From Polaromonas sp. (lineage in GTDB: Bacteria; Pseudomonadota; Gammaproteobacteria; Burkholderiales; Burkholderiaceae_C), in contig NZ_JAUYEY010000031.1 in assembly GCF_030689685.1 (NCBI RefSeq), forward strand, positions 62,001-126,000: DNA of 64,000 bases, given 5' to 3'. The position numbers were made by a program, and so were the translations under genes. Positions within the stretch are counted from its first letter, which is position 1; every line of letters starts with the position of its first letter. This document shows, piece by piece, positions 22,741 through 47,261 of this stretch. A model generated the notes under the pieces. The model did no database searches. It worked only from the letters and a program-made list of their open reading frames with translations, and was not told where the DNA came from.

Positions 22741-22816
22741 GCGGGAGTAGCTCAGTTGGTAGAGCGCAACCTTGCCAAGGTTGAGGTCGAGAGTTCGAGA
22801 CTCTTCTCCCGCTCCA
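22741..22816 (+). tRNA. tRNA-Gly (GCC)
   Basis: GCGGGAGTAGCTCAGTTGGTAGAGC; loop TTGCCAA; encoded CCA. Confidence 0.97.
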
Positions 22817-22820
22817 ATTC

Positions 22821-22853
22821 AAAAGGGCAGCACGTCAAAATGCTGTCCTTTTT
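22821..22853 (+). terminator. intrinsic terminator after tRNA-Gly
   Basis: AAAAGGGCAGCAcgtcaaaaTGCTGTCCTTTTT. Confidence 0.65.
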
Positions 22854-22904
22854 CATTGGGTTGTTGCTGTTAGTAGAATTGGTTTATTGAGCCCGACAGA
22901 TCAA

Positions 22905-22978
22905 GGCGCGGTAACAAAGCGGTTATGTACCGGATTGCAAATCCGGCTAGCCCGGTTCGACTCCGGGCCGCGCCTCCA
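22905..22978 (+). tRNA. tRNA-Cys (GCA)
   Basis: GGCGCGG acceptor, CCGGA-TTGCAAA-TCCGG anticodon arm, encoded CCA. Confidence 0.95.
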
Positions 22979-22994
22979 CCCAAGTTTTTTTGCC

Positions 22995-23017
22995 AGCCCC
23001 TGCAATGGGGCTTTTTT
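22995..23017 (+). terminator. intrinsic terminator between tRNA-Cys and tRNA-Leu
   Basis: AGCCCC-tgcaat-GGGGCTTTTTT. Confidence 0.65.
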
Positions 23018-23036
23018 GTTTCACAATGAGAGCCCT

Positions 23037-23130
23037 GCCCGGGTGGTGAAATTGGTAGACACATCGGACTTAAAATCCGCCGCTTTCCTGCATAAGGGGC
23101 GTACCGGTTCGATTCCGGTCCCGGGCACCA
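23037..23130 (+). tRNA. tRNA-Leu (TAA)
   Basis: GCCCGGG acceptor, anticodon loop CTTAAAA, long variable arm, GGTTCGATTCC, encoded CCA. Confidence 0.92.
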
Positions 23131-23228
23131 CATGACAGTTTCCTGATGCATTGCAAGTCCTTGGCGCTGCAATTTCCCCCTTCCGTGGTCATGTTTATTT
23201 CAGGCTGCAACTGGTTAAGATAGATTCC

Positions 23229-23867
23229 ATGGCCCGCTACAACACACCTCCTTTTGAAATTCACGTTCACGGCGAAGTGCCCTTGCGTGACGACATCGGT
23301 TTCGAGCAGTTGCAGGATGCGCTGAAACCACTGTGGGCATACGCGGGCGCCAAATCGCTGGCGGATGGCGCGGCCAGCGTGTACGAGGAAGAGCCGGGCA
23401 TACGTTTCGACGCCCACCAGCATTTGCTGCAGCTATGCTGGACGGTTCCGGGTGATGAAGACTTTCGGCAGGTGCTTGACGAAGTCTGCATGGCCCTCAA
23501 CGAGATGGCCGTCAGTGGCGCACCGATTGAAGTCACGTTTTACGATGCCGATTTTGACGAAGATGAAGAGCGCGACGGCGAAGAAGCCAGAGACGACTTT
23601 GCCATGTATTTTGTGGGCCCTACGCCGGCCGCCATCATGCAGGTCCAGCGCGACCTGCTGGTGCAGGACATGATCGGCCTGATGGAGCGGCATTTCGATG
23701 CCACCGAACTCGGTGACGTGGTGGCGGCGGTGGACAAGTTGTTCGAGCAGCGCTTTGAAACATTGGTCAATTCCATGCAACTGGGCCGACCCCCGCGCGG
23801 CCTAGGCGGGCCGCAGGGTGGCTCCAGTCACGGTGGTGGTGGGCGCAAGCCGCGACACCTGCACTAG
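23229..23867 (+). CDS. conserved hypothetical protein
   Basis: 213-aa ORF with acidic stretch and Gly/His-rich tail; stop codon lies in the CTAG edge of a TIR element. Confidence 0.75.
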   Translation: MARYNTPPFEIHVHGEVPLRDDIGFEQLQDALKPLWAYAGAKSLADGAASVYEEEPGIRFDAHQHLLQLCWTVPGDEDFRQVLDEVCMALNEMAVSGAPIEVTFYDADFDEDEERDGEEARDDFAMYFVGPTPAAIMQVQRDLLVQDMIGLMERHFDATELGDVVAAVDKLFEQRFETLVNSMQLGRPPRGLGGPQGGSSHGGGGRKPRHLH

Positions 23868-24032
23868 GAGCCTGGGCGGCAGAAGGGACGTCGGCTGCAA
23901 AGCGGCCGCGACGGTCCATTTTCCGCCGGTTTTTTGCCCCATAGCTACGGCTATGAGGCTGCAAACCCGGCAAAAACTGTCCTCGCCGGGGCCACTTTTC
24001 GCTTCGACGCCTTCTGTCGCCCAGACTCCTAG
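23864..24032. mobile_element. 169-bp TIR element (copy 1)
   Basis: CTAGGAGCCTGGGCGGCAGAAGG...CCTTCTGTCGCCCAGACTCCTAG; near-identical to 45935-46104. Confidence 0.85.
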
Positions 24033-24035
24033 CAG

Positions 24036-24200
24036 AACGGCATTGCGAGTCAGCCTGATTTGCTGGATGCTCAGCGCTCGCTGTTTTCGGCGCGGCAAGC
24101 GGTGGTGCAGACCCGGCTGCGGCAATGGCAGAACCAGGTCACGCTTTACAAAATACTGGGCGGTGGCTGGAAGGACGAGGGCGCGCAGGCCACACCCTGA
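24036..24200 (+). pseudogene. 3' remnant of NodT/OprM-type RND outer-membrane efflux lipoprotein
   Basis: Frame reads NGIASQPDLLDAQRSLFSARQAVVQTRLRQWQNQVTLYKILGGGWKDEGAQATP*, with no upstream portion; abuts the TIR element. Confidence 0.75.
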
Positions 24201-45934: not shown

Positions 45935-46104
45935 CTAGGAGCCTGGGCGGCAGAAGGAACGTCGGCTGCAAAGCGGCCGCGACGGTCCTATTTTTCACCG
46001 GCTTTTTGCCCCATAGCTACGGCTATGGCGCTGCAAACCCGGCAAAAACTGTCCTCGCCGGGGCCACTTTTCGCTTCGACGCCTTCTGCCGCCCAGGCTC
46101 CTAG
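45935..46104. mobile_element. 170-bp TIR element (copy 2)
   Basis: CTAGGAGCCTGGGCGGCAGAAGG...CCTTCTGCCGCCCAGGCTCCTAG, perfect 23-bp TIRs. Confidence 0.88.
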
Positions 46105-46364: not shown

Positions 46365-47033
46365 ATGCGCCTCGTTCAGAACTCACTGCACCAGGAAGTC
46401 GCCGCCACCTTGCGCGAGCAGATTTTTGCCGGCCTGTATGCACCCGGCAGTTTTCTCGATGAACTGGTGCTGTGCGAGCGGCTGCAGATCTCGCGCACGC
46501 CCCTGCGCGAAGCGCTCAAGGTGCTGACCGCCGAGGGCCTGCTGCGCCACGAGCCGCGGCGCGGCTGCTTCATCAGCGAGGTGACGGAAAAAGACCTGGA
46601 CGACATTTTTCCGGTGATTGCGCTGCTCGAAGGGCGCTGCGCTTATGAGGCAGCACGCAATGCAAGCGACGCCGATCTGGCCACGCTGGTCACGTTGCAC
46701 GAGCGCCTGAACAGCCACGCCCATGCCGGCCGCATCAACGACTACTACGACACCAATTTCGCGATCCACGAAGCCATCATCACGCTGGCCGACAACCGCT
46801 GGCTGGCCATGGCGATCTCCGATCTGCGCAAGATCCTCAAGCTGGCCCGCTCGCAACAACTGCACGCGCCCGGTCGTCTCGCGCAAAGCCTGTCCGAACA
46901 CATGGCGGTGTTTGCCGCACTGAAAGCCAGAGACAGCGCAGGCGCCGAAGCCGCCATGCGCACCCACCTGACCCGCCAGCGAGAAGCCCTCAGAGACCTC
47001 GCAAGGAATCAGAGATCGAGGGTGCTGGCATGA
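46365..47033 (+). CDS. GntR (FadR subfamily) transcriptional regulator, MatR-like by context
   Basis: LREQIFAGLYAPGSFLDELVLCERLQISRTPLREALKVL wHTH; FCD-like C-terminus. Confidence 0.88.
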   Translation: MRLVQNSLHQEVAATLREQIFAGLYAPGSFLDELVLCERLQISRTPLREALKVLTAEGLLRHEPRRGCFISEVTEKDLDDIFPVIALLEGRCAYEAARNASDADLATLVTLHERLNSHAHAGRINDYYDTNFAIHEAIITLADNRWLAMAISDLRKILKLARSQQLHAPGRLAQSLSEHMAVFAALKARDSAGAEAAMRTHLTRQREALRDLARNQRSRVLA

Positions 47034-47144
47034 CCTACCTGACGAGGGGCCCCGGCGGAACGCCGGGGATCGGCAGTAAAGGTCATGCCAGCAAGGAGTC
47101 GACACCTTTTCGCTCGCAAATCGTTAGCGCAACGGGAGGCGACA
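47028..47144 (+). repeat. 117-bp tandem duplication, unit 1
   Basis: GCATGACCTACCTGACGAGGGGCCCCGGCGGAACGCCGGGGATC... repeated from 47145. Confidence 0.95.
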
Positions 47145-47261
47145 GCATGACCTACCTGACGAGGGGCCCCGGCGGAACGCCGGGGATCGGCAGTAAAGGT
47201 CATGCCAGCAAGGAGCCGACACCTTTTCGCTCGCAAATCGTTGACCCCTCGGGAGGCGACG
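47145..47261 (+). repeat. 117-bp tandem duplication, unit 2
   Basis: Near-identical to 47028-47144 over most of its length; diverges at its end. Confidence 0.95.

Follow-up and report, generated by a model that had tools for sequence, protein, structure and literature searches.

The window analysed here, a 64,000-nucleotide stretch of a Polaromonas sp. contig, contains two near-identical copies of a short, palindromic sequence bounded by CTAG, located at 23864-24032 and 45935-46104. Is this sequence a mobile element or a fixed structural one, and, if it moves, which enzyme moves it and what does it carry between its ends? The first-pass annotation of the window had taken it for a MITE-type element of 169/170 bp and had left it undecided whether CTAG was the target or part of the terminal inverted repeat (TIR).

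Structure of the two copies and their target site

The general architecture was found as described. The two copies are 95% identical, copy 2 has perfect 23-bp arms if CTAG is counted in, the right arm of copy 1 contains two mismatches, both copies are centred on ATAGC-TACG-GCTAT, and neither copy (161/162 bp, non-coding) contains an open reading frame of transposase size. The length had to be revised: the CTAG flanks are present as reported but lie outside the element, which proper measures 161 bp in copy 1 (23868..24028, + strand) and 162 bp in copy 2 (45939..46100, + strand) and ends in 19-bp TIRs (GAGCCTGGGCGGCAGAAGG). These occupy 23868..23886 (+) and, with the two mismatches, 24010..24028 (-) in copy 1, and 45939..45957 (+) and 46082..46100 (-) in copy 2. 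Beyond the TIRs and the small central hairpin, the whole element forms a single long imperfect palindrome with about 73% alignment to its own complement (blastn); the folding energies of its two strands are -102 and -118 kcal/mol (z-scores, -10 and -12).

The status of CTAG was decided by the flanks of 88 distinct insertions collected from many genomes. CTAG stands on both sides in 64 of them, two have CAAG/CAAG and CGAG/CGAG flanks in direct, not inverted, orientation, and the remaining flank pairs mostly differ by 1-2 bases. Direct repeats such as CAAG/CAAG and CGAG/CGAG are impossible from an inverted repeat, so the tetranucleotide is a duplicated target and lies outside the TIR. The locus of copy 2 (left duplication at 45935..45938, right at 46101..46104) leads to the same answer because its relatives G017 and G039 keep both flanks without the element and carry a single tetranucleotide in its place. 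Occupation of the same two loci in all relatives, which the first-pass annotation had named as the outcome that would speak for a fixed sequence, was not found.

REP/REPIN elements are likewise palindromic and present in high copy number, but they are moved by HUH RAYT enzymes and make no target duplication. A repeat of this type, mobilised by a RAYT (TnpA-REP) transposase, would account for the palindrome, the many copies and the conserved tetranucleotide at the ends. The sequence studied here, however, is about 160 bp long rather than 20-40 bp, has its tetranucleotide outside the element, and combines a 4-bp target duplication with perfect TIRs in common with DDE insertion sequences (IS), both of which are features of DDE transposition. 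We regard the REP/REPIN reading as the least probable of all those considered.

At copy 1, the upstream gene takes its TAG stop from the left CTAG (23864..23867), as had been noticed at first reading. This gene (23151..23867, + strand; 23151 is not an assigned start codon) encodes a DUF6806 protein (PF20621), and several relatives that have no insertion already read CACTAG at its stop; the stop codon was therefore probably the target site of the insertion. This is not confined to copy 1: among 37 element ends that were scored, 7 overlap the TAG that closes an open frame at least 150 codons long. Because CTAG contains TAG, an insertion could fall exactly on a stop codon and leave the protein unchanged. 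A run of three tRNA genes (22741-23127) precedes copy 1 at a short distance; no link between them and the element was seen.

Copy number and the probable IS1182-family parents

The first-pass annotation had treated the sequence as a two-copy element and had proposed a search of the genome for its TIR. In the assembly that contains the window (4.11 Mb, 103 contigs, completeness 100), the 23-bp end pattern, when up to 3 mismatches are allowed, is found at 60 positions in forward and 52 in reverse orientation, giving 112 TIR ends, while the reversed-letter control of the same pattern occurs in neither orientation (0 and 0). By blastn, 40 copies could be scored among 131 candidates. The genome thus holds more than 50 copies rather than two, and in this fragmented assembly even a figure of at least about 50 is a lower estimate because many contigs end inside a copy; the repeat has itself fragmented the assembly. 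A plasmid search returned no match to the element. Four shorter copies of 105, 86, 85 and 70 bp (L035, L053, L120 and L135) are internal deletions of the 161-bp form; all retain the two TIRs, and some of them are still flanked by CTAG at either end. The same ends also border other miniature elements with other interiors, namely one group of 147-149 bp and another of 309/312 bp (L107, L111, L114, L134, L138, L115, L118 and L141).

Full-length IS with the same ends, the counterpart that the first-pass annotation had suggested looking for, were recovered by scanning genome contigs for the element end, a scan that also returned further MITEs. Among the hits, six complete elements, 1519-1572 bp long, carry this TIR (hereafter class A) with CTAG on both sides; their hosts are Polaromonas (L094), Aquabacterium (L096), Burkholderiales (L108 and L124), a Proteobacteria MAG (L126) and Comamonadaceae (L146). 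Each contains one long transposase frame of about 430-445 aa. The four transposases that were scanned have DDE_Tnp_1, DUF772 and DDE_Tnp_1_6 domains and reach 362-387 bits with the IS1182 model of NCBIfam (NF033551), whose cut-off is 270. The MITE TIR is identical over 19/19 bp to the left end of the L124 element and differs by 1 mismatch from that of L108 and others. Within the genus Polaromonas, two further IS1182-type elements were found (L163 and L165), and the genome of the former (G016) holds both an IS1182-type element and the MITE.

The sequence is therefore short and devoid of a transposase gene, shares its TIR with autonomous IS, duplicates its target and occurs in many copies at variable sites with empty counterparts. 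This combination bears out the first assignment to the MITE type, and we conclude that it is very probably a non-autonomous MITE that DDE transposases of the IS1182 family mobilise in trans. In the mechanism that we propose, such a transposase would recognise the 19-bp TIRs, as the matching ends suggest, and would excise or copy the MITE and join it to a cut at CTAG (more loosely, CNAG), a presumed 4-bp stagger giving rise to the 4-bp duplication. While the ends, the duplication, the empty site, the matching IS, the copy number and, as described below, the hairpin covariation and the hybrid copies can be read directly from the sequences, the identity of the mover is inferred from elements of other genomes with matching ends, because the assembly of the host itself has no IS1182 transposase (its sole match is distant, with 27% identity). 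For the same reason, the copies in this genome are probably immobile unless the enzyme re-enters or was missed. An IS1182 contig may have been lost from the assembly, since its 103 pieces often break inside the repeat and the smallest contigs are about 3 kb long.

Counting against this assignment, other DDE families also target CTAG-like sites, and an IS701-family element of the same genome does so. We considered a MITE mobilised by a CTAG-targeting transposase of the IS5 or IS701 family: this genome has IS701-family copies directly next to the CTAG that borders MITE copies, and transposases with a DDE_Tnp_1 domain are present in it. The 19-bp TIR, however, is exactly that of IS1182 elements, and the left side of the IS701 element shows TAGTCTTACTRTGTCATA, with no such TIR of its own, so that we find this origin very unlikely. 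The IS701-family neighbours were rejected as the parent: they have different ends, and the only MITE sequence in their vicinity belongs to an adjacent copy or is its last 19 bp. IS701-family sequence starts, at three places (L087 on C64, L088 on C50 and L288 on C41), right at the CTAG that flanks either a MITE copy or a 19-bp remnant of one; judging by these junctions, the CTAG made by the MITE seems to serve a second IS family as a landing site.

MITEs are usually seen as internally deleted copies of one IS, with a short evolutionary life. A true deletion derivative of this kind was found in L110 (610 bp), in which both ends of the transposase gene are fused. The MITE of the window differs: blastn finds nothing in common between it and the IS1182 elements beyond the TIR. 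On this result, an origin by internal deletion of an IS1182 element is rejected, and the MITE interior does not come from the IS elements found here. What links the MITE to the IS1182 family (NF033551) is its TIR and its CTAG duplication, which are those of the full-length elements; it lacks a transposase gene, and its body consists of non-IS sequence.

Among described systems, IS1272 belongs to the same transposase family and likewise involves palindromes, but it is reported to insert in place of inverted repeats without duplicating its target (PMC5678879). The IS1182-family members found here duplicate CTAG, and insertion into a palindrome without duplication, a trait that only part of the family shows, was not encountered among them. 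The closest known element is MITEPye1, reported in Paracoccus yeei, which is 159 bp long, intergenic and devoid of an ORF, has 18-bp TIRs similar to those of the IS1182 family (ISPye18), 4-bp direct repeats and a long stem-loop, and is present in 1-3 copies per chromosome (PMC11578231), compared with more than 50 in the Polaromonas genome. The comparison was made with the published description rather than with the sequence; because size, TIR type and fold agree, common descent of the two elements is plausible. A MITE has also been reported in Polaromonas sp. JS666 (Mattes 2008, as cited in PMC10969869); this citation places a MITE in the genus, which may or may not be the element described here. 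A literature search with the letters of the TIR returned unrelated papers only.

The palindromic body and its probable exchange between TIR classes

Between the TIRs, the palindromic body (45958..46081, + strand, in copy 2) with its central ATAGC-TACG-GCTAT hairpin is conserved across the family, as judged from folding, alignment and a covariance model. We built this model from the body alone, leaving the TIRs out, and searched 399 genomes across the phylum, a thin sampling obtained with strict filters. The body was found in 12 of these 399 genomes, including other classes of Pseudomonadota, with up to 9 copies each. Most distant copies examined carry a TIR and CTAG, or a near variant, both of which lie outside the model; they measure 157-163 bp between the flanking tetranucleotides, and exactly 159 bp in 14 of 20 cases.

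In an alignment of 57 sequences, 21 of the 29 body pairs show at least two Watson-Crick types, and 92.7% of cells are paired, versus 21-30% when the partners are slid by 1-3 columns. From the covariation and from this difference in pairing it follows that the fold of the body is maintained, beyond mere inheritance. Whether it acts as DNA or as RNA was approached through the type of mismatch. In a 37-sequence set in which G-U was disallowed in the choice of pairs, no strand bias was seen (GT in 10 cells, AC in 13). An apparent bias in an earlier count was rejected since G-U had been permitted when its pairs were selected. The 57-sequence set shows a bias (19 versus 52 cells, 5 versus 13 pairs) that is confounded by shared ancestry and is thus only suggestive as a sign of RNA-level selection.

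The covariation bears on the reading of the sequence as a fixed structural or regulatory RNA element, such as a terminator-like hairpin or a small RNA, that was duplicated and is not a transposon. Strong covariation, the very stable hairpin and the position of several copies directly at gene ends (the 7 of 37 element ends on stops of long frames) are all what this reading would predict. Empty sites and 4-bp duplications, including non-CTAG ones, are not, and neither are ends identical to those of IS1182 elements or the scattered sites. No family in Rfam 15 reached its gathering score (best 26.6 bits versus a threshold of 79), and matches obtained at permissive thresholds were chance hits to eukaryotic families far below their own thresholds. 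The empty sites and target duplications refute an RNA element as the sole explanation, to which we accord very little probability; an RNA role in addition to mobility may exist because a mobile element can still be transcribed.

Returning to the MITE moved by IS1182 transposases, we found the same interior bordered by a second TIR (class B, GAGCCTGTCGGACTT), again with CTAG outside, in relatives from the genus and from the order. IS1182-type elements with class B ends exist, and their transposases are approximately 35-42% identical to those of class A; three of the distant carriers hold fragments of a class B transposase (58-83% identity). The genome of the window itself has a few pure class B copies as well as three hybrid copies that combine a class A end with a class B end between intact CTAG flanks (L052 on C62, L088 on C50 and L288 on C41). 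Taken at the sequence level, these arrangements indicate a separate palindromic cassette of about 120 bp, constrained in length and fold, that two or more IS1182 sublineages differing in their TIRs have carried and apparently exchanged.

Such an arrangement is unusual for a MITE: the interior is unrelated to the parent IS, the length of 157-163 bp and the pairing are kept across classes of Pseudomonadota, and the ends change with the transposase lineage. As a tentative hypothesis, which we hold to be possible although the odds are somewhat against it, the body of about 120 bp could be an old parasite of IS1182 transposases rather than the short-lived wreck of one IS. It would have persisted both vertically and horizontally, would be selected for a fixed length and fold (as extruded DNA or as transcribed RNA), and would change its TIRs to match the IS1182 lineage active at the time. 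The hairpin fold itself might help the element to spread or to be tolerated. These features would open the question of whether selection acts on MITE interiors to direct test.

Copy 1 and the missing efflux operon

For annotation, the element matters in that it breaks the assembly of its host genome and, at copy 1, marks a large deletion. In G017 and G049, the upstream gene of copy 1 and the stretch that follows the element in the window lie about 6.6 kb apart. The intervening stretch of G017 contains tetR, membrane-fusion, AcrB-type and outer-membrane efflux genes and is followed by an alternative oxidase gene. The right CTAG of copy 1 (24029..24032) is directly followed, in the window, by ~145 bp from the very end of the outer-membrane gene, a remnant of the 3' end of this RND efflux gene at 24033..24175 (+ strand; blastn to the intact operons in G017 and G049), and about 6.6 kb are missing. 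By comparison with these relatives, copy 1 marks the edge of a deletion of approximately 6.6 kb that removed an RND efflux operon (tetR-MFP-RND-OMF), with its right CTAG at the junction. The deletion would have arisen either by recombination of two MITE copies or as an adjacent deletion made by the element. The junction reads TAGCAG in the window versus TACCAG in the relatives and fits neither origin exclusively.

In another part of the window, a small frame that follows a GntR-type gene (47030-47260) encodes the peptide MTYLTRGPGGTPGIGSKGHASKE.TPFRSQIV, repeated twice.
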